In this document: piece after piece, positions 6,691 to 34,700 of the stretch
Layout: every line of letters begins with the position of its first letter
Position numbering within the stretch: the stretch's first letter is position 1
Assembly: GCF_028561335.1 (NCBI RefSeq)
Contig: NZ_JAQQTG010000007.1
Location: 1-64,000, forward strand
Reading direction: 5' to 3'
Source: Aequorivita todarodis
GTDB lineage: Bacteria; Bacteroidota; Bacteroidia; Flavobacteriales; Flavobacteriaceae
DNA: 64,000 nucleotides
Translations under genes and position numbers: made by a program
The notes under the pieces: model-generated
The model's input: only the letters and a program-made list of their open reading frames with translations
Databases searched by the model: none
Told to the model about the DNA's origin: nothing

Positions 6691-6739
6691 CTGTTAAGGT
6701 GTGCTGCATTGCCGAATACTGAACACTGAATAAAAAACC

Positions 6740-10257: not shown

Positions 10258-10328
10258 ATTAAAAGGGAGAGTATTAATCTTTTTTCCAATAACTAAGGTA
10301 AGGAAAATATGGCGCAAGAAGGAGGGTG

Positions 10329-12083: not shown

Positions 12084-12221
12084 TGGTGAAATATTTAATA
12101 ATTAATACGTAGTTGAAATTTCTTCCCTAAGGTCAAGGCTTTTAGTTAATTTTAAAACCTCCATTTATTGGCACGAGGGTTTGAGCCGATCTATTATGGG
12201 TTTGATGCAAGGAACTAATAG

Positions 12222-12252
12222 TTGTACAACTATTAAAAACGACTTAAGTTTG
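12222..12252 (+). promoter_or_regulatory. Bacteroidetes-type promoter (TTG - 20 nt - TAAGTTTG)
   Basis: TTG at 12222-12224 and TAAGTTTG at 12245-12252 are 20 nt apart. This fits the flavobacterial consensus TTG-N(17-23)-TAnnTTTG and lies just ahead of the ATG at 12270. It implies a very short leader. Confidence 0.65.
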
Positions 12253-12269
12253 TCAATAAATTAAATTCT

Positions 12270-12794: not shown

Positions 12795-12904
12795 GTTTTT
12801 AATAGCACAGGTTAAGACGAGCTCGTGGACAATTATTTTTCAGAGGGCTTTATATTCTTTATATGTTATATGTCATATATCCTATCATCAAAAATCAACT
12901 TTTT

Positions 12905-13537
12905 TTAAGGGGTAAATATATTGTGGTGAATGGCGAAAAGCATAAGCCCAATCCTGTTCTTTATTCCGAGTTTTTTGTATAGTGAATCCCTGTAACCTTC
13001 AACCGTTTTGTAGCTGCAGAACATAGTTTCGGCAATTTCCTTATAGCTCATATCGGTACAGGCCAATTTTATGAATTCCAGTTCCTTGTCCTTTATTTCG
13101 GTATCAAGGTTTTTTTCTATTGAATCCATAAGTATTTGCGAAACGGTATTCGTGTAATATTGGCCGTTTTTAATTACTTCCAACAAAGCTTGTTCAAGGA
13201 TATCCTTTTTGGTATCTTTCATAAGATACCCCTTGGCTCCAGCGCGGAGCATCTTCAAAATGGTGTATTCATCCTCTTCAATGGAAAGGGCCAGCACTTT
13301 TACCTCTGGGTAATTCTGTTTAAGCTTTTCGGTAGTTTCTATACCGTTCAAAATGGGCATTTTAATATCCATCAGCACCAAATCGGGAATGTTTTGTGGG
13401 TTTTCAAATTTATCTAGCAGTTCCCTTCCATTTTTGCATAAATAAAGCACATCAAAATTTTCAAAATCCTGGACGAGCCCACCAATAGCCTGGGAAAGCA
13501 AAAAATGATCGTCAACTACTACTACTGAATACTTCAT
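12905..13537 (-). CDS. NarL/FixJ-family response regulator
   Basis: 210 residues. The receiver domain has the phospho-acceptor Asp57 (LVLMDIKMP), an acidic pair VVDDH at the start, and Lys near 105 in YLMKDTKK. The C-terminal LuxR-type helix-turn-helix begins about residue 145 (KELEFIKLACTDMSYKEIAETMFCSYKTVEGYRDSLYKKLG, read in segments). It is the last gene of a minus-strand operon with a HisKA_3-type kinase 41 bp upstream, its expected partner. Confidence 0.95.
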   Translation of the reverse strand: MKYSVVVVDDHFLLSQAIGGLVQDFENFDVLYLCKNGRELLDKFENPQNIPDLVLMDIKMPILNGIETTEKLKQNYPEVKVLALSIEEDEYTILKMLRAGAKGYLMKDTKKDILEQALLEVIKNGQYYTNTVSQILMDSIEKNLDTEIKDKELEFIKLACTDMSYKEIAETMFCSYKTVEGYRDSLYKKLGIKNRIGLMLFAIHHNIFTP

Positions 13538-13578
13538 TGTATAATTCCTTTTAAATGTTTTTATATCTAAAGAATGCC

Positions 13579-14331
13579 CTAAGCAAATTTATATTTTAAG
13601 AGCAGAGCAGTGCCCTCGCCTTTTACCGAATCTATTCTCAAAGTTGAATTGATAAGCTTTGCCCGGGTTTTCATATTTTTCAATCCAATGCCCATGAAAT
13701 CGTCATCCTTTTCAAACCCCACTCCGTTATCCGCGGCTGTAATGGTCAATTTCTCCTCGGTGTAATTCAGTACTACCTTGAGTGAGGATGCCTTTGAATG
13801 TTTTATGGTGTTTGAAAAAAATTCCTGCAAAATCCGAAAAAGAATTATCTGTGTATTTGCTTCAATCGGCACCACTGTTCCCTCTACTGTTAATTTTGCG
13901 GCTATGAATTTCAATCTATTGAAACGCTCAATCTCCAACCTAACGGCTTCCCGCAAACTAAGGCTCTTTAGAGCTTCGGGGTTTATCAGCTTTGAAAGCG
14001 CCCGCAACTCGTCAATCCCTGTGCCTATGGTTTCTGAAACCTCGATCATCATCTCTGGCTTTTCCAAGGCCATTTGTGCCTGTATTTTTGCCAAGGTCAT
14101 CAACTGCCCAATGTTGTCGTGCAGTTCCCAACTTATGTTGCGCAAGGTTTCTTCCCTAATTTCTATCTGCGATTCTGCCAATTCGCGCTCAAAAGCTTTT
14201 TTGGCTTCTGCCTGTTCCCGCAACAAGCGGTTCTTTCTTCGGGTAAAAACGGAGAACAATACAATAACAATAATGACCAAGGATATTGGAATAGCTATTG
14301 CCGCTATTATTATGATCTCTTTTTCATCCAT
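13579..14331 (-). CDS. NarX/DesK-like sensor histidine kinase (HisKA_3)
   Basis: 250 residues. It has a single N-terminal transmembrane helix (about residues 5-29), a short coiled coil (LLREQAEAKKAFERELAESQ), then the HisKA_3 dimerisation domain with phospho-His near residue 71 in SWELHDNIGQ. The ATPase domain contains LFRILQEFFSNTIKHSKAS (N box), ADNGVGF (G1) and GIGLKNMKTRA (G2). There is no extracellular sensor domain of its own. The membrane protein overlapping it by 22 bp could supply sensing. Confidence 0.93.
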   Translation of the reverse strand: MDEKEIIIIAAIAIPISLVIIVIVLFSVFTRRKNRLLREQAEAKKAFERELAESQIEIREETLRNISWELHDNIGQLMTLAKIQAQMALEKPEMMIEVSETIGTGIDELRALSKLINPEALKSLSLREAVRLEIERFNRLKFIAAKLTVEGTVVPIEANTQIILFRILQEFFSNTIKHSKASSLKVVLNYTEEKLTITAADNGVGFEKDDDFMGIGLKNMKTRAKLINSTLRIDSVKGEGTALLLKYKFA

Positions 14332-14963
14332 AGAAAGCCCGTCAAAAAGAACAAATACATTAGTATTATGAGCGAAAACTGTATTATTAGCAATAGGTCA
14401 AAAAAACTATCCGGCTTATAGAACCATGTTTTAATAATTTTTATTGGCAAATAACCAATATAAAACAAGAATAGCCCAACACTTACCCAAAACAACAGGT
14501 CGTTCTTAACTACCAATACCAATGAGGACTGTAAGATACTTATATAATATAGAATTATACAAAATATTAAAATACTCGCTCCAGCAATATAGGTTCTCGT
14601 GAAAGAATCCTTAAAAAAGCCGGTAAACACTATATCGCTCAAAAAAAATAACAAAAAAATACCGAAACCTATTTGAATGTTTTTTTTGAATCTTTCATTT
14701 TCAATCATCTTCATAAAAATATAGAAGAATATGGAAAAATGAATCAGATAATACCCATTGAAAATGGTAAAAATAAGTTGTGTATTCCCTGAATTTTTTA
14801 GGTAAGTGCCCAAAAATTCCGTAACCATGGTAACAAACAATACAATGGGCAAAAACTTTAAAGCAGTATTTTTATAAAGTGGAAATCTTATTAATGAAAT
14901 TACAAAAACAATGGCGTATAGTACCAAATAAGTATTTTGAAGAATGGTTAATGCTGTTTCCAC
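14310..14963 (-). CDS. Multi-pass membrane protein, possible sensor for the adjacent kinase
   Basis: 217 residues, with six or seven predicted transmembrane helices spread over the entire length, beginning TYLVLYAIVFVISLIRFPLY and ending LIILMYLFFLTGFLWMKKRS. There is no recognised domain. It overlaps the kinase gene by 22 bp, so the two are probably made together. Small multi-helix proteins of this kind are frequently encoded next to HisKA_3 kinases that lack a sensor domain; calling it the sensor is inference from context. Confidence 0.75.
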   Translation of the reverse strand: METALTILQNTYLVLYAIVFVISLIRFPLYKNTALKFLPIVLFVTMVTEFLGTYLKNSGNTQLIFTIFNGYYLIHFSIFFYIFMKMIENERFKKNIQIGFGIFLLFFLSDIVFTGFFKDSFTRTYIAGASILIFCIILYYISILQSSLVLVVKNDLLFWVSVGLFLFYIGYLPIKIIKTWFYKPDSFFDLLLIIQFSLIILMYLFFLTGFLWMKKRS

Positions 14964-20626: not shown

Positions 20627-23185
20627 ATGAATGCCAATTTTCTGCAAACCCCGATAGATTACCTAAAAGGCGTTGGGCCCAACCGGGCCGATTTGCTGAA
20701 AAAGGAACTCGGCATCCATACCTTTCAGGATTTGCTGAATCTTTTTCCGAATAGATATTTGGACCGTACCCAGTATTACAAAATCGCGCAGTTGCAACAG
20801 ACCAATGCCGAGGTACAGATTATCGGAAAAATCACCCACATTAAAACCGTAGAACAAAAACGAGGGAAGCGATTAGTTGCAACTTTTATTGACGAAACGG
20901 GAACGATGGAATTGGTTTGGTTCCGTGGCCAAAAATGGATTCGTGAAAATTTAAAGCTGAATGTTCCGTACGTAATTTTCGGAAAGACGAATTATTTCAA
21001 CGGTAGTTTTTCCATGCCGCACCCTGAAATGGAATTGCTCGATGCGCACGAAAAAAGTATTCGTTCCGCAATGCAACCCGTGTATCCTTCCTCTGAAAAA
21101 TTAAGCAACAGTGGCATCACAAATAGGGTGATAAATGGACTGATGCAGCAGCTGTTTTTAGAGAGCAAAAATAACTTCGCCGAGACCCTCTCAAAACCAC
21201 TTTTGGAACAGCTGAAATTGGTCTCGAAAAAGGAGGCACTTTTCAACATACATTTTCCGAAAAGTCAGGGGCATTTGGCACGGGCACAATACCGATTAAA
21301 GTTTGAGGAATTGTTTTATATTCAGTTGCAATTAATCCGAAAAAACCTCATCCATAAATCGAAAATCAAGGGCCATATGTTTGATAAAATAGGCCATAAC
21401 TTCAACACCTTTTATTCGCAACATTTGCCCTTTGAATTGACCGAGGCACAGAAGCGCGTCATCAAGGAAATCCGCAACGATTTGGGAAGCAATGCGCAGA
21501 TGAACCGACTTTTGCAGGGCGATGTGGGTTCGGGGAAAACCATAGTAGCGTTCATGTCAATGTTAATAGCACTTGACAACGGTTTTCAGGCCTGTTTAAT
21601 GGCGCCGACTGAAATTTTGTCAGTTCAACATTACAATGGTTTAGCTGAAATGTGTAAAAGCCTGAACACCAGTATTGAATTATTGACCGGCTCAACCAAA
21701 ACTTCAAAAAGAAAAGAAATTCACGAAAAACTTGAAAATGGCGAGTTAGACATCTTAATTGGCACCCACGCCTTGCTCGAAGATAAGGTAAAATTTAAAA
21801 ATTTAGGGCTTGCAATTGTGGATGAGCAACACCGTTTTGGAGTGGAACAACGGAGCAAATTATGGCATAAGGGAGGCCCACCTCAATCCTCCCTGAGGGA
21901 GGAAGCAGCAAGAGTGCGTAAAAAATATATGACGGCTAGGCCATCTGCTTATAAATTACTAAAAGAGCTCCAGCAAAAAAACAAAAAACAACCCACCCAA
22001 GCCGAAGCAATTTTATGGGAATGTTTACGAACCAAAAAACTTGATTATAAATTTAGACGACAACATATTATTGATGAGTTTATTGTCGATTTTGTCTGTC
22101 TCGAAAAAAAGCTGATAATTGAAGTAGATGGGGGATATCACAACCATCCACAGCAAAAAGAAGCTGATGAGCTGAGAACGCAGATTTTAAAAGAACTGAA
22201 GTTTAAAGTACTACGGTTCCCAAATGAAGAAATAATAGGCAATATCGATGCCTCGCTAAAAACAATTGAAACAGCTTTAAAAAGCCTCCCCTCCGGGGAG
22301 GTTGGAGGGGCCGGGGCCATTCCCCCCCACATCCTCGTTATGACCGCCACCCCCATCCCCCGCACCCTCGCCATGAGTGTGTATGGCGACCTGGATATCA
22401 GTGTGATTGACGAGTTGCCGCCAGGCCGAAAAAACATCAAAACTGTCCACCGTTTTGACGCCAATAGACTAAAGGTTTTTCGCTTTATAAAGGACGAAAT
22501 TTCGAAGGGACGGCAGGTGTATTTTGTCTATCCATTGATACAGGAAAGTGAGGCGATGGATTACAAGGATTTGATGGATGGATACGAAAGCATCGTGCGC
22601 GAATTTCCTCCCGACGGTTCGGGACCGAAATATCAAGTTTCCATCGTTCACGGACAGATGAAACCAGCCGATAAGGATTATGAAATGAACCGTTTTATAA
22701 AAGGCGAAACCCAAATTATGGTCGCCACAACGGTTATAGAAGTTGGCGTAAATGTGCCAAATGCCAGTGTGATGATTATTGAAAGTGCGGAACGTTTTGG
22801 ACTATCACAATTACATCAATTGCGCGGCAGAGTTGGTCGCGGTGCCGAACAGAGTTACTGCATTTTAATGACCGGCCACAACCTTTCGGCAGATGCCAAA
22901 ACCCGCTTGGAAACTATGGTACGCACTAGCGACGGTTTTGAAATTGCCGAAGTGGATTTAAAACTTCGCGGCCCCGGCGATTTGATGGGCACCCAGCAAA
23001 GCGGCGTGCTGAACCTTCGCATTGCAGACCTCGTAAAAGATTCGGAAATATTGAAGATTGCCCGGAGCTATGCCTCACAGACCCTAAAAGCAGACCCCAA
23101 CCTTTCTTCCGAAGAAAATATTCCTATAAAAAACACATTCGAGCAGCTTGTAAAGTACCGAAATATCTGGAATTACATTTCTTAG
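20627..23185 (+). CDS. recG: ATP-dependent DNA helicase RecG with an in-frame DUF559 nuclease insertion
   Basis: 852 residues; without the insertion it would be 703, the usual RecG length. The wedge/OB region is followed by Walker A GDVGSGKT (298-305), DEQH (399-402), then the foreign segment (about 416-564), then TATP (573-576), the rest of the helicase and the conserved tail QLVKYRNIWNY. RecG reverses stalled forks and processes Holliday junctions. The normal sequence KLW-K..IPPHILVMTATPIPRT is split after KLWHK and resumes at IPPHIL. The reading frame is intact across both joints. Whether the helicase still works, or the extra domain alters it, cannot be told from sequence. Confidence 0.97.
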   Translation: MNANFLQTPIDYLKGVGPNRADLLKKELGIHTFQDLLNLFPNRYLDRTQYYKIAQLQQTNAEVQIIGKITHIKTVEQKRGKRLVATFIDETGTMELVWFRGQKWIRENLKLNVPYVIFGKTNYFNGSFSMPHPEMELLDAHEKSIRSAMQPVYPSSEKLSNSGITNRVINGLMQQLFLESKNNFAETLSKPLLEQLKLVSKKEALFNIHFPKSQGHLARAQYRLKFEELFYIQLQLIRKNLIHKSKIKGHMFDKIGHNFNTFYSQHLPFELTEAQKRVIKEIRNDLGSNAQMNRLLQGDVGSGKTIVAFMSMLIALDNGFQACLMAPTEILSVQHYNGLAEMCKSLNTSIELLTGSTKTSKRKEIHEKLENGELDILIGTHALLEDKVKFKNLGLAIVDEQHRFGVEQRSKLWHKGGPPQSSLREEAARVRKKYMTARPSAYKLLKELQQKNKKQPTQAEAILWECLRTKKLDYKFRRQHIIDEFIVDFVCLEKKLIIEVDGGYHNHPQQKEADELRTQILKELKFKVLRFPNEEIIGNIDASLKTIETALKSLPSGEVGGAGAIPPHILVMTATPIPRTLAMSVYGDLDISVIDELPPGRKNIKTVHRFDANRLKVFRFIKDEISKGRQVYFVYPLIQESEAMDYKDLMDGYESIVREFPPDGSGPKYQVSIVHGQMKPADKDYEMNRFIKGETQIMVATTVIEVGVNVPNASVMIIESAERFGLSQLHQLRGRVGRGAEQSYCILMTGHNLSADAKTRLETMVRTSDGFEIAEVDLKLRGPGDLMGTQQSGVLNLRIADLVKDSEILKIARSYASQTLKADPNLSSEENIPIKNTFEQLVKYRNIWNYIS
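21872..22318 (+). mobile_element. DUF559 nuclease cassette with palindromic ends, inside recG
   Basis: A 447-bp (149-codon) insertion. The core from the in-frame ATG at 21929 encodes a Vsr-like/DUF559 domain: TQAEAILWECLR, KFRRQHIIDEFIVDFVCL, KKLIIEVDGGYH, then DELRTQILKELKFKVLRF. Acidic residues in AEAILWE, VDF and IEVDG fit the nuclease fold. The ends (21875-21906 and 22284-22312) are inverted relative to each other, each with a GGCCC head and its own palindrome (TCCTCCCTGAGGGAGGA on the left, CTCCCCTCCGGGGAG on the right). There are no intein splice residues (no terminal His-Asn or Cys/Ser). Confidence 0.88.
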
Positions 23186-23225
23186 TTCTACTATAAAATT
23201 TTATATAATCACAACACTTCCATAT

Positions 23226-23267
23226 AGGGGGGAAAACCCCCATCAATTTAGGGGGATTTCCCCCTAA
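23226..23267 (+). terminator. Two G5/C5 hairpins after recG
   Basis: GGGGGGAAAACCCCC (from about 23227) and AGGGGGATTTCCCCCT (23252-23267) form two small hairpins between recG and the araC-type gene. The T tract after them is poor (TAAATAATT), so they may be a weak terminator or an operator for the downstream regulator. The second palindrome is identical to the one after the patatin gene. Confidence 0.5.
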
Positions 23268-23345
23268 ATAATTAAATCAATTTTTCGTATTTTGTTAGAT
23301 ATTAGAAAGATATGGGCCAAAACACCCAGTCTTAAAGTAAATGAA

Positions 23346-24176
23346 ATGTTTAAAACATTTATTCCATCCAAAATTCTTCAACCCTACGTTGCATTTTTTT
23401 ATACCATAAAATGTGAGAAAATAAATTACGACCAAATAATTAGTGAATACGCGCTACCAAGTGGATTTGGACATATGGGGTTTCACTATAGGGGTTCCTT
23501 TTACGTCCTTCAAAAAAACAAGAAGCAAGACCTTGCCAGGTTTTATGGGGTCGGGCAACAAACGCACCAATACTATATTAACTCAGATTCAGAACTGGTA
23601 GATTTTTATGGAGTAACATTTCACCCAACTGCAATGTGGCATCTATTTGGGTTGGATATGCCATCCATTACCGATAAAGCTTTTGCAAGCACCGCGCTCT
23701 TTAGCACTAATATCGAAAAATTTACAAAACAATTTAATGAAGATCAAGAGCCTGCTTTAAAAATAAAACTTATTGAGAATCTCTTGCTCGATGAAATATT
23801 ATCTGTACAACCGCAGTTGAATGTTATTGATACCGCTATCCAAAAGATAAATGAAACCTATGGCTGCGGTTCTATTGCAGCGCTTATTGATGAATTGGGA
23901 ATTAGTGCTCGGTACTTTCAAAAAAACTTTAAAAAAATGGTTGGTATTACCCCTACCACCTATAAACGGATAGTGCGTTTTAATTGTATGTTTTCCCAAT
24001 TAAAAATTGATGCCCCCATTGATTGCAAAGGCTTAAGTGCCTTTTATAATTATTACGACTTTCCCCATTTTACCAAGGATTTTAAAAGGTATTGTGGCAG
24101 CTGCCCATCAGCATTTCATATTGAAAAGTTCCATTTTCTTCGAGAAGTTGTGGCTTCAAAAGCGTTAATGGACTAG
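23346..24176 (+). CDS. AraC-family transcriptional regulator
   Basis: 276 residues from the ATG at 23346; an upstream TTG would add 18 unlikely residues. The N-terminal half resembles the cupin-like sensor region of AraC proteins common in Bacteroidota (FIPSKILQPYVAFFYTI, VDFYGVTFHPTAMWHLFG). The C-terminal HTH_18 region includes SIAALIDELGISARYFQKNFKKMVGITP and DFPHFTKDFKRYCGSCPSAF, read in segments. It opens the island between recG and the recG remnant. Its 3' end and downstream hairpin are duplicated twice further along, each time ahead of a secreted-peptidase gene, which suggests a regulatory link to those genes; that is inference. Confidence 0.9.
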   Translation: MFKTFIPSKILQPYVAFFYTIKCEKINYDQIISEYALPSGFGHMGFHYRGSFYVLQKNKKQDLARFYGVGQQTHQYYINSDSELVDFYGVTFHPTAMWHLFGLDMPSITDKAFASTALFSTNIEKFTKQFNEDQEPALKIKLIENLLLDEILSVQPQLNVIDTAIQKINETYGCGSIAALIDELGISARYFQKNFKKMVGITPTTYKRIVRFNCMFSQLKIDAPIDCKGLSAFYNYYDFPHFTKDFKRYCGSCPSAFHIEKFHFLREVVASKALMD

Positions 24177-24275
24177 TCTCCATAAAATACCTTTAAAACT
24201 TTATGCAATTGATTTCCAAAGCATAAAGGGCGGTTTTATACAACTCGTTATTAAGTGTTCCTATTACTTTTAGAG
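24018..24275 (+). repeat. Island repeat copy A (araC 3' end plus hairpin)
   Basis: Copy A of the island repeat. It covers the last 50 or so codons of the araC-type gene, its TAG stop and about 95 bp after it. The hairpin has perfect 8-bp arms CTTTATGC (24199-24206) and GCATAAAG (24221-24228). The first 100 bases after position 24061 are nearly identical to copy B, and the last 115 or so to copies B and C. Confidence 0.92.
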
Positions 24276-24354
24276 TTGTAAGTGGACGAAAAAGAAAATT
24301 AGGTCAATTACAAATGGGAAAAAGAAAATTTAAACAAATTTAAAAACAAATATC

Positions 24355-25869
24355 ATGAAATATTTGATCCTTACTACATTTTTCATTTATGGTTGCATAA
24401 GTTTTGGGCAAATCAAACCTAAAACAAATTCACCCGATAGATTCATTCCTGAAAATGTGATAGAAATTCCAACCAAAAACAATCAGGTTGAGATTCCAAA
24501 AAATACCACCCCAAAAAGAATAAACATTGTTCCAACACTTTATGGAAAATGGACAAATGCGAATAAGAATATGCTATATATTTATAAAGAAAATGATGTG
24601 AAATTCTTTTTCGTTTCCGAGGAAAAAGTCATTAATCCATTATGGACTATTATCGGAACAGCTAAAAAAAATCCCGACGGTACTTTTAAATTTGAATACG
24701 GTTATGCCTTCAATAAAAACAACACCGGTTTTGACAATTGGATTTTCGAGAAGGATTTAAAAGGAAGTTTTATGGATACACGTGGTACGAATGTTTGGAA
24801 AAAATATTCTGGACCATTGGTGCGAAGTAAAAAGGTATTTTCCCCCCCCACACCTAAAGCAGGAACCTCAGTCCTAGTTGGCCCCCTTTCCTTTTCGAAC
24901 ACTTACACAGATTCAAAAAGACAGATTATGTGGCATGTTAACAATGCTGGAGATAAAATATTTATGTTGGGTGAAACAGTAGATGGGGTAATACAATTTA
25001 TTGGCATTGGTACTCGAACAAAACAATTAAACACAAAATATGGTAATACTTATCAACTGGATATGAATTTAGTAAATACTATAGGACCAAATGACAAAAC
25101 AGTTAATTATAAATTTATGTGGGATAGCCGTGGAATATCTTATTTAAACAGTTCGGATTGCTATAATTTGGAAGCTGGATCATATCCTAGACCAGACGGG
25201 ATTACATTTGTTTGTCCAGATGGAATGGTTTCGGGAATGCAATATAGAATGATACCCCTTCATAAATATGATCTTAACCGTACAGCTAATGTGGCATCAA
25301 ACATACAGAAAAACCAAGCATATTTTAAATATACCCCACCCAGCTCTCCCTACAAGGACCCCAGACTCTCCGAAAATAATGACAAGGACAATGATGGCCA
25401 TGGATATATTGGGGCTTACAATTGCACTTTCTGTGATGATTGTGATGACAACGACCCCAATAGATTTCCAGGAAATTCGGAAGTTGCCGATATGAATGGC
25501 TATGACGAAGACTGTAATTATGAGACCATAGGTAAATTGGATCGTGATGGGGATGGGCACACCGATTATCGGGTAACTAACATAGATGAAAAAGGAAATA
25601 TTAGAAAAAGCGGAGACGACTGTAATGATAATGACCCAGACATATATGAAGGTAGAATCGAAACATGCGACGGTAAAGACAATAACTGTGACGGCAATAT
25701 AGATGAAGGCTTATTAAAAACACAATATTACAGAGATGAAGATGGTGATGGTTTGGGCAACCCTGATGTTTCCCGAGGTGTTAAGAATTGCTACCAGCCT
25801 GACGGTTATGTAAGCAACTCAATAGATTGCGACGATAGCGACAAGTCAAAAAAAACAAATTGTAACTAA
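24355..25869 (+). CDS. Secreted MopE-like protein with Asp-rich metal-binding motifs
   Basis: 504 residues. The signal peptide is MKYLILTTFFIYGCISFGQ. The middle (about 50-300) is a beta-rich region without recognised motifs. From about residue 340 come repeated Asp/Cys-rich segments of the MopE 'putative metal-binding' type: DNDKDNDGHGYIG, CDDCDDNDPNRFPG, LDRDGDGHTDY, GDDCNDNDPDIYEG, CDGKDNNCDGNIDEG, DEDGDGLGNP and IDCDDSDKS. Such repeats bind calcium, and copper in MopE itself. No T9SS domain is seen, so the export route beyond Sec is unclear. A segment at about residue 165 (SPPTPKAGT) resembles the in-frame REP-like insertions found in two other genes here. Confidence 0.8.
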   Translation: MKYLILTTFFIYGCISFGQIKPKTNSPDRFIPENVIEIPTKNNQVEIPKNTTPKRINIVPTLYGKWTNANKNMLYIYKENDVKFFFVSEEKVINPLWTIIGTAKKNPDGTFKFEYGYAFNKNNTGFDNWIFEKDLKGSFMDTRGTNVWKKYSGPLVRSKKVFSPPTPKAGTSVLVGPLSFSNTYTDSKRQIMWHVNNAGDKIFMLGETVDGVIQFIGIGTRTKQLNTKYGNTYQLDMNLVNTIGPNDKTVNYKFMWDSRGISYLNSSDCYNLEAGSYPRPDGITFVCPDGMVSGMQYRMIPLHKYDLNRTANVASNIQKNQAYFKYTPPSSPYKDPRLSENNDKDNDGHGYIGAYNCTFCDDCDDNDPNRFPGNSEVADMNGYDEDCNYETIGKLDRDGDGHTDYRVTNIDEKGNIRKSGDDCNDNDPDIYEGRIETCDGKDNNCDGNIDEGLLKTQYYRDEDGDGLGNPDVSRGVKNCYQPDGYVSNSIDCDDSDKSKKTNCN

Positions 25870-26219
25870 TTAAGGAAATACAAAAACAAATTGTTTTAAA
25901 ATAACACCCATGCAATTAATTGTTTTATTCGCTTTATAATTAACAACTTGTAGAGGCAGCTATCTTTTATCAAAAAAGTGAAAAGGCCGATATTATTTTT
26001 AATGTTCACCCCAATCAATTTCTAAACTCTTGCGCACGCAAAGATTGAGAGTGGCTTTAAATTTATTAAATACCAAATCGTTGGATGTAATTAAATCATT
26101 TGTTTTTTGATATTATTTATTGGTCTGCCAAATATAAATTTCTTGACATATTTAACAAATGTTAGAATCTATTAATAATCTATTGATTTAAAAAAAACAC
26201 TCATTAACGTATAGAAATC
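25870..26219. other. A+T-rich gap without a gene
   Basis: 350 bp, strongly A+T-rich. No open frame, RNA fold or member of the repeat families of this window was found in it. It presumably contains the promoter of the following gene. Confidence 0.6.
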
Positions 26220-26933
26220 ATGGAAAATAAAAATCAAAACTGAAGAAAATTTTTGACCAAACTTGGCGTCGCTGTGAGTACAGGAGTAGGATTGGGATTG
26301 ATGCCCAATACTGCACTGGCAAGTACGGCATTACCAACCGTACAAACCTGGGCTATGTGGATACATGGAAGCGCAGGAAGAATAGAGGGATGTGCACACG
26401 ATGGGCAGAAAAGCCCTATAACAATGGCCAAACTAAAAAAGAAAATGATGACCATCAGCTCAATGAACTATTTTAGATCTGGAAATAATGGTGGCATGCC
26501 TGGGACTACTGTAGCATTGGAAGGTGAAGCTGCAGGCACTATGATCCCAACTTCTGGTGGTGGTCAATTTATTATATGGGATCGTGGCACTAAAAATAAT
26601 GATAAAAACGGCGAGTTCTGGGTGCATTATGCTATTCCTACTCCTTTAATTGCAGCAGGAACAAGGGCGAAAGCAGGACTGTGCTTAGTTAGTTGTATGA
26701 GCACAGATATAAAAATGCATATTGGTCAAGTAGAGGTATGGCATGGAAATAAGAGTATCTTTAGCCAAGCAAATACACAATTGTGGGGGCCAGAAAAAAT
26801 GCACCGATTCAATATACCTACCACACCTTCCGTTATGGGGGCGCTTTGCATCTCCCTTAAAATAAAAGGAGAACGTGTAAATGCAACTAAAATTCTAGAA
26901 ATTAGCGGTGTAGGCATCGATTTTTATGTTTAA
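26220..26933 (+). pseudogene. Tat-exported protein gene with an in-frame TGA in the twin-arginine motif
   Basis: From the ATG at 26220 the frame reads M-E-N-K-N-Q-N, then TGA (26241-26243), then RKFLTKLGVAVSTGVGLGLM and an export-type cleavage region NTALAS. A CGA in place of TGA would give the twin-arginine signal RRKFLTK. The remaining 226 codons to 26933 are open and look coding: WAMWIHGSAGRIEG, FWVHYAIPTPLIAAGTRAKAG, QVEVWHGNKSIF. I do not recognise a characterised family, though the 'W-HG ... aiPTP' pattern resembles uncharacterised DUF6623-type proteins. It may be a recent pseudogene, a sequencing error, or translated from a TTG at 26253 without a Tat motif. Confidence 0.7.
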
Positions 26934-27027
26934 TGGAAATATTAGATTCCAATATGATGATAAGAAGAATCGCACTTCACTTAACACAACATTTTTGCTT
27001 GTAAACTAATGTTAACAATATTAATAT

Positions 27028-27294
27028 TTGAAAAGTTTCGTGGAGAACTTAATTGTCCATCGCAGTCATGGGCGCTTCATCAGTGTCTTTCGAGGTTTTA
27101 ATATTATTATTGATCAAATTCAACCAAATTCCCCTATAGATTATCAATCCTTAAGTGCGCTCTGCAATTATTATGACCTTCCCCATTTTACCAAGGATTT
27201 TAAAAGGTATTGTGGCAGCTGCCCATCAGCATTTCACATTGAAAAGTTCCATTTTCTTCGAGAAGTTGTGGCTTCAAAAGCGTTAATGGACTAG
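27028..27294 (+). pseudogene. Truncated araC-type gene (C-terminal part only)
   Basis: The last 53 codons are almost identical to the end of the complete regulator at 23346-24176 (LPHFTKDFKRYCGSCPSAFH and on to SKALMD). Before that the similarity falls off fast (GFNIIIDQIQPNSPIDYQSLSALCNYY against RFNCMFSQLKIDAPIDCKGLSAFYNYY) and the sensor domain is absent. It is a remnant of a second araC gene whose tail has been homogenised with the first, or a partial duplication that drifted. It is unlikely to bind DNA alone, since one of the two HTH helices is missing. Confidence 0.85.
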
Positions 27295-27366
27295 TCTCCA
27301 TAAAATACCTTTAAATCTTTATGCAATTGATTTCCAAAGCATAAAGGGCGGTTTTATACAACTCGC
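27136..27366 (+). repeat. Island repeat copy B (araC 3' end plus hairpin)
   Basis: Copy B includes the end of the araC fragment, its stop and the hairpin with arms CTTTATGC (27317-27324) and GCATAAAG (27339-27346). It differs from copy A by only a few bases over the 185 bp from about 27181. It lies directly upstream of the M4 peptidase gene. Confidence 0.92.
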
Positions 27367-27452
27367 TATAAAATTTCCATCTTACATTTAGACATCTCAA
27401 CTCCCCCATTATTTATTATTAAAAGAATATTAACCACTTTAAATTTAACATT

Positions 27453-30080
27453 ATGGGACATTTAAACTTTCTTAATTCAAGAGCACGATCAGCAGAGAGC
27501 TACTTTGCAATTCACGCCATTAAAACACATTATTCGAAGGCAACATCAAGAATATTAAAAAAAGTAATTTCAATGTTCGTATGTTTACTTCTAATGGGCA
27601 CATTGGCCTTAGCTCAAAACGTTCAAACATCTATTGATGCTTTAACCCAACAGACAGATGCGGTAATCACCGTAAACAAAAATTGTGGCATTGTCCAATT
27701 TATCAAATTTCCAGCTACGGAACCTTTAAACTTACAAGGCAATACTGCATATGAAAAAGCGATTTCATTTTTAAAAGACAACAAAGGCATTTACACTGTG
27801 GAAAACATAGATGAAGCCTTTATTCACAAAACAACCGAAACTGATCAATATGGGTTGAAACGAGTTGTGTTGACCCAAGTATATCACGGAGTTCCCATAT
27901 TTGACGGCAAATTATATTTCCATTTTAATACGGAGGAAAAGCTGACTGCCATCAACGGAAACTATATGGCTAACATTAAAGTAAATCCTGTTCCAAGTAT
28001 ACCCCAATCACGGGCTTCATCAATTGCTCTGGAAACAATACATAATCAAAACATTAATTTTTCAGGAGCTCCAATGCAGGTACTGGAAAAGACCCTCTAT
28101 ATATTCCAAAAAGGAATGACACAAGGCTATCGCGGGGCGCAACATTTGGTTTATAAAATTGAAGTGAGCAACCAAGTAGATGTTAGGGAGTTTCTTTTTA
28201 TAGACGCACATACCGGCATCGTAATAGAACAATATACTGGAATAGCCCATGCCATACACCGCACCATTTATGAGGTGAATACTTCAAATATTGTTTGGGA
28301 AGAAGGCGATCCATTTCCAGGAACACTTGACCAATGGCAACAAAATGAGGTAGTAGTGTCTGAGCATACCTATAATTTTTTTAAAAATGCTTTTGGGCAT
28401 GTGTCTTATAACGGTGCAGACATACAAATGAAAGTAATCAATAATGACCCAAATATCGTTTGTCCAAATGCCACCTGGAATGGCATCACTGCAAGTTTTT
28501 GTGATAACGTAGCATCAGATGATGTTATAGGGCACGAATGGGGACACGCATACATGGAATATACCGGTGGACTAATTTATAGCTGGCAATCGGGTGCACT
28601 TGATGAATCTTATGCAGATATTTGGGGAGAAACAATCGATTTATTGAATGGTTATGAAGATGACGGAGAAGATCTTTCGCTAAGAACCGGTTGCGGTAGC
28701 TCTGATCGTTGGATGCAAGGTGAAGATGCAAGCGGTTTTGGAGGCGCGATAAGAGATATGTGGAACCCTAATTGCAAAGGAGACCCAGGAAAAGTAAGTG
28801 ATCCCCAATTTTGGTGTTCAGGAGCCGATTGGGGTGGAGTGCATACAAATTCTGGTATATCCAACCATCTTTACGCATTATTGGTAGATGGCGGCACTTA
28901 TAATGGACAGACCATCACTGGTATTGGTTTTACAAAAGCTGCCCATATTTTTTGGAGAGCACAGAGCCAGTATTTAACACAAACAAGTGGCTTTATAACT
29001 TTTGCAGATGCTTTAGAAGCAGCCACTTCAGATTTAATGGGTATCAACCTGGAAGGCTTGTCCACGGCTTCTCCAGCAGGACCTTCTGGCGAAATAATTA
29101 CGGCAAATGACCTTACGCAAGTTACCAATACCATTCTTGCCGTAGAATTAAGAAACGATCCACCCGCTGCGTGTTTTGTAACCATTTTGCAACCTTTAAC
29201 TGATGAATTGTGCGAAGCCGCAATTTCTAACCCAATATTTTTCGAAGATTGGGAAGGTGGATTTGGCGATTGGACCCATGAAGAACTACCTGTACATCCA
29301 GCTTTATGGGTGCCCAGAGATTGGATGATTTATACGGGTCCTTTAGATAATAGAGATGGACTCATTGCTTACGGCCCCGCAGATTATTATGCCAATTGCA
29401 CCACGAACGGCCAAGAAGGTATTATTCGGTTAACAAGCCCCATTATTACCATGCCAAATGATCCTAATCCTACATTTGAAATGGCATTTAATCACACGAT
29501 TTCTTTAGAAACTGGATATGACGGCGCAAACATTAAGTACAGTTTAGATGGAGGCAATTGGAACTTAGTTGAGGCATCTTCATTTACTGAGAACACCTAT
29601 AACTATAGTGTTTTACCTAACAGTGATAACCCGTTATCTGGCGAGCCAGCTTTTACTGGTTTAGATGGTGCAGGTGCTTATCTAACCTGGGGAACCAGTG
29701 TTATAAATTTATCCACTCTTGGAGTAACAGCAAATTCAACCGTTCAATTCAGATTTGAAGTAGGTACAGATAAATGTGGTGGTGTATTGGGTTGGGCCTT
29801 GGATGAAATTATGATCTATAATTGTGAATCGCTTTCTATTGCCGATACAGATTTTGAAAACATCATTAAGGCATACCCAAATCCAACAGGTGGAATTGTA
29901 AACATAAAAACCACTACCCAAATAAGTGCTATTGAAGTCTATAATATATATGGACAATTGGTAGCATCTAACAATAATAGGGACCAAATTGATTTAACTG
30001 GGTTTAGCCAAGGAATATATATTTTAAAAGTTACTGCTATTGATGGCAGATTCAGTATGATTAAAGTATTAAAAGAATAA
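27453..30080 (+). CDS. M4 (thermolysin-type) metallopeptidase with T9SS sorting domain
   Basis: 875 residues. An unusual hydrophilic leader of about 40 residues beginning MGHLNFLNSRARS precedes the export signal (ISMFVCLLLMGTLALAQ). FTP and PepSY propeptide regions follow, then the catalytic zinc site HEWGH (361-365), with Glu385 in GALDESYADIWGE as third ligand and an M4 C-terminal helical domain (GVHTNSGISNHLYALL). A beta-sandwich domain (about 590-790) precedes the T9SS type A domain (AYPNPTGGIVNI ... GIYILKVTAIDGRF). It is probably an extracellular protease activated by propeptide removal. It is preceded by repeat copy B. Confidence 0.94.
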   Translation: MGHLNFLNSRARSAESYFAIHAIKTHYSKATSRILKKVISMFVCLLLMGTLALAQNVQTSIDALTQQTDAVITVNKNCGIVQFIKFPATEPLNLQGNTAYEKAISFLKDNKGIYTVENIDEAFIHKTTETDQYGLKRVVLTQVYHGVPIFDGKLYFHFNTEEKLTAINGNYMANIKVNPVPSIPQSRASSIALETIHNQNINFSGAPMQVLEKTLYIFQKGMTQGYRGAQHLVYKIEVSNQVDVREFLFIDAHTGIVIEQYTGIAHAIHRTIYEVNTSNIVWEEGDPFPGTLDQWQQNEVVVSEHTYNFFKNAFGHVSYNGADIQMKVINNDPNIVCPNATWNGITASFCDNVASDDVIGHEWGHAYMEYTGGLIYSWQSGALDESYADIWGETIDLLNGYEDDGEDLSLRTGCGSSDRWMQGEDASGFGGAIRDMWNPNCKGDPGKVSDPQFWCSGADWGGVHTNSGISNHLYALLVDGGTYNGQTITGIGFTKAAHIFWRAQSQYLTQTSGFITFADALEAATSDLMGINLEGLSTASPAGPSGEIITANDLTQVTNTILAVELRNDPPAACFVTILQPLTDELCEAAISNPIFFEDWEGGFGDWTHEELPVHPALWVPRDWMIYTGPLDNRDGLIAYGPADYYANCTTNGQEGIIRLTSPIITMPNDPNPTFEMAFNHTISLETGYDGANIKYSLDGGNWNLVEASSFTENTYNYSVLPNSDNPLSGEPAFTGLDGAGAYLTWGTSVINLSTLGVTANSTVQFRFEVGTDKCGGVLGWALDEIMIYNCESLSIADTDFENIIKAYPNPTGGIVNIKTTTQISAIEVYNIYGQLVASNNNRDQIDLTGFSQGIYILKVTAIDGRFSMIKVLKE

Positions 30081-30183
30081 TGATCATTTGCATTGTATGG
30101 GTAGCCAATTAGTTTAATAGATATTAAAATGAACTTAATAAATCAAGGCATAGAAGACTATAGCTAAAAGTCTGTGATTGTCA

Positions 30184-30300
30184 AGAAGTTGTGGCTTCAA
30201 AAGCGTTAATGGACTAGTCTCCATAAAATACCTTTAAAACTTTATACAATTGATTTCCAAAACATAAAGGGCGGTTTTATACAACTCGCTATTAAGTTTT
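30184..30300 (+). repeat. Island repeat copy C
   Basis: Copy C contains only the last codons of the araC gene (from AGAAGTTGTGG) and the following hairpin region. Two G-to-A changes at the inner stem (arms 30240-30247 and 30262-30269) remove its two loop-side base pairs. It lies in the 303-bp gap 30081-30383, which otherwise holds only the leader of the M28 gene. Confidence 0.9.
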
Positions 30301-30383
30301 CTAACTACTTTTAATCTTGATTCTACATATCAACTCCCACAATTGATTCAAAAACGAATATTAACCTTTTTAAATATATCATT

Positions 30384-32105
30384 ATGGGACATTTAAACAT
30401 TATCCATTCCGGAACAAAAACAACAGTGAACTATTTTGGCGATTCTGCCGAACCACTCCAATTAAAAGACAATAATACATCTGGTACACACAAAAATGGG
30501 TATCGGCGCAATAGAATGACTTATTTTCTAACATTAATTGTAGGTCTTTTCACTTTATTCAGTTTTGCACAAAATACTGCACCACAAATTGAAATTACAG
30601 ATATTGCGGCAGATGAAACCGCAAAAACCCTAACCGTTAATTACTCCTTAAGCGATGCCGAAAGTAATACTTGTGAGGTATGGCTCAAAATGTCGTTGGA
30701 CGACGGAATTTATTATGAAACTGTTCCAATCGCCAAAATTACCGGCGATATCGGTACAGGTATAAACCCTGATCCAACACTCTCTTTAACTTGGGATTAT
30801 TCAGACTTAACCGTGGAAATTAGAAGTGTAGATATAAAACTATTCGCTTCCGATAACCAAGCGGTTGATATTGCAGAAATGGTCAGCCAAGTAGATGAGG
30901 CAAACTTGTTGAGCAACTTACAATTTATTGAGGGGGAGCGCCATTACTTAACGGCCCCTGTACATCTGGAAGAAGTACGGACATTTATTGAAAATGCGTT
31001 TATGGAAGTAAATCTTCAGACCGAGCGCCATTTTTTCGTTCATTCCCATTTGATGATGCAGAATATTCTCGGTCGCAAGCCCGGTGCTAAAGATGAAGCC
31101 ATTACTTATATTATTGATGGCCATTTCGATGGTAGATCTAACAGTCCCTCTGCAGATGACAATGGCTCGGCAGTAGCAGGAACGCTTGAAGCGCTTCGCA
31201 TACTCTCGCAATATTCTTTTGAGCATTCCATTCGATTTATTGGTTTTGATGCTGAGGAAGTATATTCTCCAATCGGTTATCCTGGAAGTTACAATTACGT
31301 TCTGAATGGTATAAAACCATTTGAAGACTTACAAGGAACTCTAAATATGGAGATGATCGGTTTTTATTCTGATGCAATTAATTCGCAAACATTGCCGGCA
31401 GGCTTCGCGACACTCTTTCCAGAAGCGGCACAGCAAATTGAGGACGATGAATTTAGAGGCAATTTTCTATTTGGAGTTGGTAACACGATTTCAGATCCGC
31501 TATTATCAGCTTTTATTGCTGCTTCTGAAGATTATGTTCCTGATTTAAGGCTAATTACGGTTACTGTTGCTGGTACCGGTCAGAGCGTTCCGGACCTGCG
31601 CAGAAGTGATCACGCCATGTTTTGGGATGCCGGTTTACAGGCACTGATGCTAACAGATACTGCCGATTTTAGAAACCCAAACTATCATACCCCCGGTGAT
31701 AGCATTGGCACCTTAGATTTTGGTTTTATGAAAAATGTAGTGAAAGCAGTTTTGGCAACTGTCGCAGAACTTGCCATACCCATTAGTGTAGGTTCTGATG
31801 AAACTGATTTATCTACTTGGCTGAGCATTGGTGAACACGATCAGTTTGCTGCAGAAATATTTATTTTCCCCAATCCTTCCACTGGCCTCTTGACTTTACG
31901 GGTTGAGAATGCTAAGTCTGGATTTACATCGCTTGTTGAAGTTTATGATTTAGCAGGAAAAAAGGTTTATCAAGATCTTCGAGAATTTTCTACAGGTACC
32001 AGCAATTCTGAAATCAATCTACAGCATTTAACTAACGGCTCTTATATACTTAAGCTGAAATCTAAAAACATTACAACGTCTCTTGCATTTATTATCGCAT
32101 ATTAA
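30384..32105 (+). CDS. M28-family peptidase with T9SS sorting domain
   Basis: 573 residues. It has the same kind of leader as the M4 gene (MGHLNIIHSGTKTTVNYFG), then an export signal (YFLTLIVGLFTLFSFAQ). The peptidase zinc ligands are recognisable: His in IDGHFDG, Asp in SADDNGSA, Glu-Glu in GFDAEEVYS, Glu in NMEMIGFYSD where many relatives have Asp, and His in YHTPGDS. A T9SS type A domain follows from about residue 490 (IFPNPSTGLLTLRV, GSYILKLKSK). M28 enzymes are aminopeptidases or carboxypeptidases, so this one could finish peptides released by the M4 protease upstream. A strong terminator follows. Confidence 0.92.
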   Translation: MGHLNIIHSGTKTTVNYFGDSAEPLQLKDNNTSGTHKNGYRRNRMTYFLTLIVGLFTLFSFAQNTAPQIEITDIAADETAKTLTVNYSLSDAESNTCEVWLKMSLDDGIYYETVPIAKITGDIGTGINPDPTLSLTWDYSDLTVEIRSVDIKLFASDNQAVDIAEMVSQVDEANLLSNLQFIEGERHYLTAPVHLEEVRTFIENAFMEVNLQTERHFFVHSHLMMQNILGRKPGAKDEAITYIIDGHFDGRSNSPSADDNGSAVAGTLEALRILSQYSFEHSIRFIGFDAEEVYSPIGYPGSYNYVLNGIKPFEDLQGTLNMEMIGFYSDAINSQTLPAGFATLFPEAAQQIEDDEFRGNFLFGVGNTISDPLLSAFIAASEDYVPDLRLITVTVAGTGQSVPDLRRSDHAMFWDAGLQALMLTDTADFRNPNYHTPGDSIGTLDFGFMKNVVKAVLATVAELAIPISVGSDETDLSTWLSIGEHDQFAAEIFIFPNPSTGLLTLRVENAKSGFTSLVEVYDLAGKKVYQDLREFSTGTSNSEINLQHLTNGSYILKLKSKNITTSLAFIIAY

Positions 32106-32129
32106 TTTGCAAGTCCAAAATAAAGCCTT

Positions 32130-32170
32130 ATAGTCTTCTGCCACCATTATATGTAGCAGAAGACTATTTT
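32130..32170 (+). terminator. 12-bp-stem terminator at the right end of the island
   Basis: Arms 32130-32141 and 32156-32167 pair perfectly over 12 bp with a 14-nt loop, and TTTT follows. It ends the M28 gene and lies 20 bp before the recG remnant. Confidence 0.85.
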
Positions 32171-32189
32171 AATTAATAAATAAAACGAA

Positions 32190-32369
32190 ATGTTAAACCT
32201 TTCGCAATGTCTCTATTTTAAACGATAGCGAGCTATTGAAAATCATCCGCAGCTTTGCCCCCAAACTCTAAAAACTGACCCAAACCTTACTTCCGAAGAA
32301 AACATTCCAATTAAAAATACCTATGCCCAGCTTGTGAAGTACCGAAATATCTGGAATTATATTTCGTAA
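32190..32369 (+). pseudogene. Decayed copy of the recG 3' end
   Basis: The stretch aligns with the last 60 or so codons of recG. DSELLKIIRSFAPKL (from 32224) matches DSEILKIARSYAS, then after a frameshift KTDPNLTSEENIPIKN and YAQLVKYRNIWNYIS match the RecG tail at 28 of 32 residues, including the stop position. By eye the last 99 nt are about 80% identical. It is not expressed as a protein, having lost the rest of the gene. It marks the right edge of the island that begins after the intact recG stop at 23185. Confidence 0.9.
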
Positions 32370-32495
32370 AACACACCTGAGTAGTTTGATTCCCTTTTCT
32401 GAAACCGTCAATTTCCGAAGGTCCTTCACAAGCACAATGCCGTTCCCCAATTAATTTTCTTGCCAATTCGATTACTTTTCAATACTTTTAGGTTT

Positions 32496-34700
32496 ATGAC
32501 AGAAGCCGCTTTAGAAGAAGAGAAAAAGGAGCTCGCCAAGCAGTACAAACAGCTGCTCAAGATCAGTTACCGCACCCTTACCAAAGCAGATAAAAAACTG
32601 ATCCGCAGCGCATTTGACCTTGCCGTTGATGCCCACAAGGAGCAACGCCGCAAAAGTGGCGAGGCTTATATTTTTCACCCTATAGCGGTCGCAAAAATTG
32701 TTGCTTCGGAGATTGGACTGGACGCTACCAGCATCGCTGCCGCCCTTTTGCACGACGTGGTTGAGGATACTGAATATTCCTTAGAGGATATCGAGCGTAT
32801 GTTTGGCACTCCCGTGGCCCGCATTGTGGACGGGCTTACCAAGATTGCCCATATCAATATGTCTGAAGACGTTTCCATGCAGGCGGAAAATTTCAGAAAA
32901 ATGTTGCTTACCCTCAATGAGGACATTCGCGTAATCATCATAAAAATTGCGGACCGGCTGCACAATATGCAAACTATGGACAGCATGCCGCCGGACAAAC
33001 AGCGGAAAATCGCTTCGGAAACGCTTTACATTTACGCCCCGCTCGCCCACCGCATTGGGCTTTACAACATAAAAACCGAATTGGAGGACTTAGGACTGAA
33101 GTTTACCGAGCCAGATGTGTATGCAGATATTTTAGGCCGCATAAAGGAAAGCAAGGAAGAACAGGACGCTTATATAGAGGCTTTCAACAAAGTGATTAAA
33201 GACTCGTTGGATGCCGAAAATTTAGAATACGAAATAAAGGGAAGACCCAAATCCATCTTTTCCATCCGAAGAAAAATGCTTGCCCAGAACGTCACCTTTG
33301 ACGAGGTGTATGACAAATTCGCCGTTCGGATTATCTATAAAAGCAAGCCCGAAAACGAAAAATTCTTCGCGTGGAAGATTTATTCCATAGTTACCGACCA
33401 TTTCCGCCCCAACCCCATACGGCTTCGCGACTGGATTTCTTCCCCCAAATCAACGGGTTACGAAGCACTGCACATAACCGTGATGGGCCCGAAAGGCCGT
33501 TGGGTAGAAGTGCAGATTCGCAGCGAGCGGATGAACGAGATTGCCGAGAAAGGTTTTGCTGCCCACTACAAATACAAAAACAAGGAAAAAGACGACGGCG
33601 GCCTCGAAAACTGGCTGAACAAACTACAAGACACGCTGGAGAATTCAGAAATAAGTGCCGTGGATTTTGTAGAGGAATTCAAACTGAATCTTTATGCCAA
33701 GGAAATTTTTGTCTTTACCCCGAAAGGAGACCTGTATTCACTTCCGAAAGGAGCCACGGCTCTGGATTTCGCCTTTCACATTCACACCGAAATCGGGATG
33801 CACACCCGCGGTACAAAGGTGAATGGAAAACTCGTCCCGCTGAGCCATGAGCTCAAAAGTGGTGACCAAGTAGAGGTTATTACGTCAGATAACGCAAAAC
33901 CTACGGCCAACTGGCTCAATTACGCCACCACTGGCCGCGCGCGTTCAAAGATTAAATCGTCACTGAAGGACGAAAAGAAACAGCTCGCCGAAGAAGGAAA
34001 AGTAATCCTGGCCCGAAAATTAAAATCGCTGAAACTAAACCTCGATGAAAGCCTACTCAACCAATTGGTGGTTTTCTTTAAGGTGAAAACGAGTTTGGAT
34101 TTGTACTATCGCGTTGGCGCGGGAATCATCGACAACCAAAAATTGAAGGATTTTGCCGCTTCGCGAAGCAATGCTTTTATCAGTTTCTTCAAAAATAGAA
34201 TCCGAAAGCCCGACAAGCCCGAGGATGTTAACAAAGAAGAAATCACTGAAAAGTTTGATCAGCTTGTTTTCGGGAAAAACGAAGATAAGTTGGATTATAA
34301 AATGGCTAACTGCTGCAACCCCATTCCCGGGGATGATGTTTTCGGCTTCGTTACGGTGAATGAAGGCATAAAAGTACATAAGACCAACTGCCCGAATGCG
34401 TTGCAACTTCAGAGCAATTACAGCTACCGCATTATGCCCGCCAAGTGGATTGACAGCACGCAACGCGAGTTTAAAGCCGTCCTTAACATTTCGGGAATTG
34501 ACACGATTGGTTTGGTAAATGAAGTAACGAAAGTAATTTCAAACAACCTTCATATAGACATGAAGAGTGTCCACTTCGACAGTAATGACGGGGTTTTTAC
34601 AGGCAAAATAGTTGTGGTGGTAAAAAACAAATCGATTCTGAACAATCTTGTGGACAACATCAAAAAAATAAACGGAATTGATAAGGTTACCCGGGTTTAG
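32496..34700 (+). CDS. relA/spoT: Bifunctional (p)ppGpp synthetase/hydrolase RelA/SpoT
   Basis: 734 residues from the ATG at 32496; the earlier TTG would overlap a likely promoter. Order of domains: HD hydrolase with HPIAVAKI and LLHDVVEDTEYS, synthetase with RPKSIFSIRRKM and DKFAVRIIY, TGS (EIFVFTPKGDLYSLPKGATA), a helical/zinc region with ANCCNPIPGDDVFG, and ACT at the end. The hydrolase residues HD and ED are intact, so both making and breaking of the alarmone are expected. It is the single Rel-type enzyme in this window. TTG at 32460 and TACTTTTA at 32483 are a fair promoter match. Confidence 0.97.
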   Translation: MTEAALEEEKKELAKQYKQLLKISYRTLTKADKKLIRSAFDLAVDAHKEQRRKSGEAYIFHPIAVAKIVASEIGLDATSIAAALLHDVVEDTEYSLEDIERMFGTPVARIVDGLTKIAHINMSEDVSMQAENFRKMLLTLNEDIRVIIIKIADRLHNMQTMDSMPPDKQRKIASETLYIYAPLAHRIGLYNIKTELEDLGLKFTEPDVYADILGRIKESKEEQDAYIEAFNKVIKDSLDAENLEYEIKGRPKSIFSIRRKMLAQNVTFDEVYDKFAVRIIYKSKPENEKFFAWKIYSIVTDHFRPNPIRLRDWISSPKSTGYEALHITVMGPKGRWVEVQIRSERMNEIAEKGFAAHYKYKNKEKDDGGLENWLNKLQDTLENSEISAVDFVEEFKLNLYAKEIFVFTPKGDLYSLPKGATALDFAFHIHTEIGMHTRGTKVNGKLVPLSHELKSGDQVEVITSDNAKPTANWLNYATTGRARSKIKSSLKDEKKQLAEEGKVILARKLKSLKLNLDESLLNQLVVFFKVKTSLDLYYRVGAGIIDNQKLKDFAASRSNAFISFFKNRIRKPDKPEDVNKEEITEKFDQLVFGKNEDKLDYKMANCCNPIPGDDVFGFVTVNEGIKVHKTNCPNALQLQSNYSYRIMPAKWIDSTQREFKAVLNISGIDTIGLVNEVTKVISNNLHIDMKSVHFDSNDGVFTGKIVVVVKNKSILNNLVDNIKKINGIDKVTRV

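Follow-up and report, generated by a model that had tools for sequence, protein, structure and literature searches.

How do two unrelated secreted peptidases come to begin with the same amino acids? The question is raised by a stretch of 64,000 nucleotides from Aequorivita todarodis (contig NZ_JAQQTG010000007.1, positions 1 to 64,000, forward strand), hereafter called the window. In it, a gene encoding an M4 peptidase and a neighbouring gene encoding an M28 peptidase both open with ATGGGACATTTAAAC (MGHLN; M4 at 27453, M28 at 30384). About 33 polar residues in the M4 protein and about 41 in the M28 protein precede the signal peptide, which agrees with the 30 to 45 residues of the original prediction, made from the letters of the window. 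We refer to this N-terminal extension as the leader. In this study, we compare the start regions of both genes with those of their relatives. The explanation that we regard as probable is the capture of an expression module: the start region of the M28 gene would have been taken over by the M4 gene through a deletion, and the DNA further upstream would have been replaced later.

Results

A start region common to two unrelated peptidase genes

27453..30080, + strand: secreted M4 peptidase gene (875 amino acids, FTP propeptide motif, type IX sorting domain)
30384..32105, + strand: secreted M28 peptidase gene (573 amino acids, type IX sorting domain)
27399..27452, + strand: common 5' untranslated region (UTR), M4 copy (AACTCCC ... 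AAAGAATATTAACC..TTTAAA ... ATT)
30314..30383, + strand: common 5' UTR, M28 copy, nearest to the UTRs behind the TPR-AraC genes of genomes G025 and G001
27453..27518, + strand: M4 leader codons 1-22, homologous to the M28 leader
30384..30518, + strand: M28 leader, 45 codons, of which codons 1-22 are common with M4
27519..27541, + strand: M4 junction stretch, without match in either fusion partner
27542..27563, + strand: former M4 5' UTR and lost start codon (ATG in G001, here TTA at codon 35), now leader codons

Self-comparison aligned positions 27258-27507 with 30181-30438 (81% identity over 260 nucleotides (nt), E 1.6e-66), which excludes chance. The repeat begins within the former 3' end of an AraC-type regulator gene, spans the intergenic region, crosses the ATG and fades at about codon 18-22; M4 codons 23-40 and M28 codons 23-45 are unrelated to each other. 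The relatedness of the upstream DNA that had been proposed is real, but it does not end at the ATG, where the proposal had set its limit. The proteins themselves were rightly called non-homologous: domain searches assigned their catalytic parts to Peptidase_M4/FTP and Peptidase_M28, respectively, and found a type IX sorting domain (Por_Secre_tail) at the C-terminal end of both. A degenerate pattern for MGHLN after an ATG had two matches in the 3.33-Mb genome, exactly the M4 and M28 starts, and the reversed control pattern had none in the same genome.

Distribution of the leader

Comparisons covered 28 genomes of the genus Aequorivita and 397 of the family; G000 is the window genome and G025 is A. 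capsosiphonis DSM 23843. A profile of the 22-residue leader recovered seven strong copies (54-62 bits) in five of the 28 genus genomes, and two weak genus matches (E 0.017 and 0.044) were set aside as chance. Among the 397 family genomes, only the two copies of the window genome itself were strong, the next best being weak partial matches at 21 bits. The search for MGHLN starts among relatives that had been proposed at the outset was productive within Aequorivita and yielded no further strong copy among the family genomes.

An M28 orthologue is present in five of the 28 genus genomes, each time with the leader. An orthologous M4 (at least 83% identity) is present in three (G000, G025 and G001), the remaining genus M4 matches being a distant paralogue. 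The leader is found on the M4 of the window and of A. capsosiphonis; the M4 of G001 is leaderless and begins with MKKIISIVICLLL (MKKIIS). Outside the genus, none of the 22 M4 relatives examined has MGHLN, and each carries an ATG at its signal peptide (23 of 24 loci were checked, 22 of them outside the genus; L036 was omitted since its match begins at residue 175). Likewise, none of the 19 M28 relatives examined outside the genus has the leader (19 of 30 other genomes' matches were checked; that of L124 has to cross a stop codon to extend as far back as residue 21). Occurrence on all five M28 but only two of three M4 orthologues indicates that M28 carried the leader first, as a gain that apparently took place within Aequorivita.

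Other candidate explanations for the common UTR were discarded. No Rfam family matched positions 22500-33000 at E values up to 1. ATTAACCNNTTTAAA, taken as a possible generic 5' UTR motif, had no exact match apart from those at the window's two leader genes; allowing two mismatches gave 14 matches, which is not above chance (10 of 100 shuffles reach 14). Weak matches of a UTR query in G022 and G019 are starts of other genes without MGHLN and were not counted as copies, nor was a weak match in G050.

Acquisition of the leader by the M4 gene

The array of G001 consists of a TPR-AraC regulator gene, leader-M28, the gene of a 324-amino-acid type IX substrate, and M4. In the second array of A. capsosiphonis, a broken TPR-AraC gene is followed directly by leader-M4. 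G025 9545-12178 (positions in L015) aligns with G001 5660-8269 (positions in the reverse complement of L018) at 86.8% identity over 2638 nt, comprising the TPR-AraC gene, the intergenic region, the UTR and the leader to about codon 18. G025 12214-14751 aligns with G001 11087-13624 at 81.6% and comprises M4, starting 13 nt ahead of the G001 M4 start codon. Since the approximately 2.8 kb of G001 in between (8270-11086), which hold the M28 body and the 324-amino-acid substrate gene, are absent from the otherwise collinear G025 array, M4 was most likely pulled onto the M28 start region by a deletion of this length. In both fused genes, those of the window and of G025, the ancestral M4 ATG reads TTA, and the old M4 5' UTR is now translated as SRI.

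The original prediction held that the regulatory region and first codons had travelled as a module to both genes. They do form a common unit on non-homologous genes; synteny, however, indicates that it was M4 that moved to the M28 start, by the loss of about 2.8 kb, and that the promoter block was exchanged later and independently. Several observations weigh against so simple a course. At the fusion point, 23-28 nt match neither partner and hide the exact breakpoint. This M4 is found in three species only, a small number of genomes from which to derive the order of events. Moreover, M4 lies behind the 324-amino-acid gene in G001 but ahead of its relative in G025, which implies more rearrangement than one deletion.

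In A. capsosiphonis, paralogous type IX substrates of 322 and 324 amino acids follow both leader-peptidase genes (L015 8091-9350 and 14910-16168; 80.5% identity over 1272 nt), and whole regulator-peptidase-substrate units have therefore been duplicated. Another relic of an araC 3' end with its intergenic region lies ahead of the broken TPR-AraC gene (L015 9342-9492).

Translation of the leader and constraint on its sequence

In A. capsosiphonis, the reading frames of M4 and M28 contain no further ATG, GTG or TTG from codon 1 up to the hydrophobic core; the first such codons are 48 and 52. Translation there must therefore begin at MGHLN, and because the M4 start codon has been lost as well, the leader is, as far as sequence can tell, translated. 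Initiation at an internal Met with an untranslated leader, named beforehand as the outcome that would speak against the original prediction, is thus contradicted by both A. capsosiphonis genes and by the change of the ancestral M4 ATG to TTA. The window does have internal ATGs, at Met41 of M4 and Met45 of M28; initiation at these would drop the basic n-region (RILKK and RRNR, respectively). None of the seven leaders contains an in-frame stop, and in all seven an extension of 33-41 residues stands ahead of a basic n-region and a hydrophobic core, as judged by eye from the translations. The extension is presumably removed along with the signal peptide.

All seven leader genes have A at positions -3, -6 and -12. 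A at these positions and at -13 is reported to favour initiation in Flavobacterium johnsoniae, according to the excerpted text of PMC6847099. Across the seven genes, 13 of the 15 nucleotides of codons 1-5 are invariant as compared to 7 of the 30 of codons 13-22; G020, almost identical to G027, was omitted from one conservation count. The invariant residues are M1, G2, N5, S9 and Y17. The ratio of nonsynonymous to synonymous differences (pN/pS) in M28 codons 2-45 was 0.95 (window/G001) and 0.92 (G025/G027), against 0.12 and 0.25 in codons 46-200; for M4 (window/G025) it was 0.58 in codons 2-35 against 0.28 in codons 56-230. The conserved element is the translation-start DNA, and the leader peptide seems to be tolerated rather than selected.

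Some of the data do not fit this interpretation as well. All seven leader genes have T at -13 and not the favoured A. Near-neutral evolution of the leader is also compatible with non-translation in the species that possess an internal ATG (window, G001, G020 and G027). Finally, the chance that an open frame is retained under neutrality is only modestly low (0.34 and 0.13 for two disjoint M28 pairs), so that the absence of stops is, taken alone, a weak argument for translation; the weight of the case lies on the lost start codon and the lack of internal starts.

Upstream blocks and their exchange

23340..24176, + strand: AraC-type regulator gene, DUF6597 and HTH_18 (intact copy, domain search)
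24140..24272, + strand: R1, final 37 nt of the araC gene and intergenic region (class I), preceding the MopE-motif gene
24355..25869, + strand: gene of an exported protein with MopE metal-binding motifs, with R1 upstream and without MGHLN leader
27095..27294, + strand: shortened araC 3'-end copy, 66 codons
27258..27390, + strand: R2, class I upstream region of M4, 124/133 identical to R1
30181..30313, + strand: R3, class I upstream region of M28, 125/133 identical to R1, starting inside a former araC 3' end
27383..27390, + strand: TACATTTA, candidate -7 box for M4 (by eye, consensus TAnnTTTG)
30306..30313, + strand: TACTTTTA, candidate -7 box for M28 (by eye, same consensus)

The consensus used for the -7 boxes was taken from the excerpted text of PMC9723704. 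R1, R2 and R3 are copies of one block of 133 base pairs, pairwise identical at 121-125 of 133 positions (R2 and R3 are 93-94% identical to R1). Since M4, M28 and the MopE-motif gene carry these near-identical copies of the araC 3' end and the DNA downstream of it, their products are predicted to be one AraC-controlled set, which would entail AraC binding and co-expression. The copies form nested direct repeats, R1/R2 around the MopE and DUF6623 genes and R2/R3 around M4. With such copies of gene 3' ends on either side of each cargo, the island may have grown by insertion-duplication. Integron attC-like sites were considered for the repeat, and no canonical ends were seen by eye.

Beyond position -106, the upstream regions of the leader genes fall into two classes. 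Class I, by a DUF6597-AraC gene or fragment, precedes M4 and M28 of the window and M28 of G025, G027 and G020. Class II, by TPR-AraC, precedes M4 of G025 and M28 of G001. The two class II regions have an identity of 0.79 to each other, as compared to 0.30-0.39 across the classes: for M28 (-175 to -106), class I (window, G025, G027 and G020) and class II (G001) are 0.30-0.33 identical, and for M4, the window (class I) and G025 (class II) are 0.39 identical. The UTRs follow another pattern. That of the window M28 gene is nearest to the class II genes (0.91 and 0.84, as compared to 0.73-0.76 to class I M28 genes), and that of the window M4 gene is 0.89-0.91 identical to class I M28 genes and 0.80 to its own G025 orthologue. 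This discordance between UTR affinity and upstream class is moderate evidence, from short regions, that upstream regions changed independently of the peptidase genes. All four pairings of regulator type and peptidase occur among five genomes: M28 stands with DUF6597-AraC or with TPR-AraC, and M4 with a DUF6597-AraC fragment or with TPR-AraC.

Positions 23247-23344, upstream of the DUF6597-AraC gene, match the DNA that precedes the TPR-AraC gene of G001 at 76.5% identity. Upstream DNA that is similar despite differing regulators makes it seem that regulator bodies, too, were exchanged between conserved flanks.

Discussion

According to the explanation that we favour, the module would consist of promoter-proximal DNA and the 5' UTR together with the opening 22 codons, start codon included, and would first have belonged to the M28 gene of the Aequorivita island between recG and rel. 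In a G001-like array, the deletion of about 2.8 kb would have removed the M28 body together with the 324-amino-acid gene, so that codons 1-22 of M28, with its promoter and UTR, came to lie in frame ahead of the short M4 5' UTR. The M4 ATG, its role lost, would then have mutated to TTA. A later replacement of more distant upstream DNA in the window lineage would have given both peptidase genes and the MopE-motif gene their near-identical copies of the DUF6597-AraC 3' end and downstream region. Initiation would take place at MGHLN, within a flavobacterial A-rich initiation region, and the extra 33-41 residues would be made and presumably cut off with the signal peptide.

Alternatively, promoter, UTR and leader may have been copied onto M4 by insertion or gene conversion, M4 itself staying in place. 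Nested direct repeats around each cargo are what insertion-duplication would leave, and it is clear that genes have exchanged upstream regions. Against such copying stands the collinearity of A. capsosiphonis with G001 to the left and right of the missing 2.8 kb, a collinearity that includes the whole TPR-AraC gene; a copied leader would not need to carry the regulator along. We therefore hold copying to be rather unlikely. A related and equally doubtful proposal takes the UTR-leader block as an exchange socket for secreted enzymes. Because every cargo gene has the same start region, homologous recombination might put any peptidase under any neighbouring AraC-type regulator with its own upstream region, which would yield the four pairings observed, and the near-neutral leader might stay in frame as an anchor for recombination and translation start.

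The other rivals concern the leader itself. It had been suggested to delay or control export, and it could do so as a functional extended signal peptide comparable to the N-terminal extension in the long signal peptides of autotransporters. It is translated and directly precedes the signal peptide in all seven copies, its residues N5, S9 and Y17 as well as M1 and G2 do not vary, and for two proteases bound for type IX secretion a delayed export could be useful. However, the two independent M28 pairs give pN/pS values near one in the leader as compared to low values in the rest of the protein, M4 and M28 have only codons 1-22 in common, and the M4 of G001 and all 22 examined relatives outside the genus do without a leader. 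The evidence supports a portable start region; export control by the leader is not supported, and we consider it improbable. It is less probable still that the leader is untranslated in the window genome, with starts at Met41 and Met45 and with MGHLN in a stretch of 5' UTR that happens to have no stop in frame. The internal ATGs and the almost neutral evolution of the leader would allow this; the loss of the basic n-region residues, the lack of internal starts in A. capsosiphonis, the lost ancestral M4 ATG, the near-invariance of codons 1-5 and the open frame in all seven genes speak strongly against it.

Capture of the M28 start region, with the switching of promoters, would be a real and well documented case, in a new form, of a known kind of event. 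In gene fusion by deletion with promoter capture, the loss of intervening DNA places a gene under the promoter and start codon of another. Here, in contrast, no more than 22 codons of open reading frame were captured, and the frame continues across what had been the 5' UTR of the downstream gene. Horizontal regulatory transfer, or intergenic-region switching (PMC5890482), is similar in that orthologous genes have non-homologous upstream regions, as seen with classes I and II for M28 and M4. In the excerpted text of that source, the term denotes intergenic DNA exchanged at one locus between strains, whereas here the unit lies beside a regulator gene's 3' end or includes it, is present in copies at three genes within a single genome and, in the start module, extends into coding codons. 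The switched sequence is not confined to non-coding DNA: the repeat contains at least 37 nt of araC coding sequence and the start module about 22 peptidase codons. Intergenic-region switching thus covers the upstream exchange and neither the coding part nor the fusion. As excerpted from PMC2805444, the extended signal peptide region of autotransporters resembles the leader as a charged or polar extension of 20-40 residues before an ordinary signal peptide. The Aequorivita leader differs by lacking a residue pattern under selection and, by eye, a second hydrophobic region; its clients are of type IX and not type V, and it is limited to a few species of one genus. Our search of the PMC literature found no description of the leader or of an Aequorivita peptidase-AraC island.

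The locus offers a readable stepwise case of the recruitment of a secreted enzyme to a new regulator, with genomes from before and after, a visible lost start codon and a separate upstream switch, and is instructive for how secreted enzymes gain new switches. It also carries a warning: an N-terminal leader that looks conserved may still lack a function as a peptide, and what is conserved here is translation-start DNA. For annotation, signal peptides lying 33-41 residues in may be missed by predictors that trust the first residues.

The island between recG and rel

20627..23185, + strand: recG, 852 amino acids, left island flank (3' end 23049-23184 repeated at 32234-32368)
32191..32368, + strand: frame-shifted recG 3'-end remnant, right island flank (by eye)

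The island sits between recG and rel. In the close relative G017, both genes are adjacent, about 125 nt apart, and the DNA by rel is 95.9% identical to that of the window. Among the 27 other genus genomes, recG lies at most 1.5 kb upstream of rel in 7, and the gap is therefore often filled, in G022 by the gene of another secreted M28 peptidase. Displaced recG 3' remnants lie beyond the island in the window (32191-32368) and in G001 (13917-14058, reverse complement of L018), with 76% and 71% identity to their own recG, respectively. The G001 remnant is no closer to the window remnant than to recG itself. Displaced remnants in two species suggest that the recG-rel gap is a recurrent place of insertion.

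The window recG gene encodes 852 amino acids as compared to 701-709 in the other genus genomes read. Its helicase part contains, in frame between DEAD and Helicase_C (about codons 415-560), a DUF559 endonuclease-like domain (E 7.3e-30, residues 448-551).

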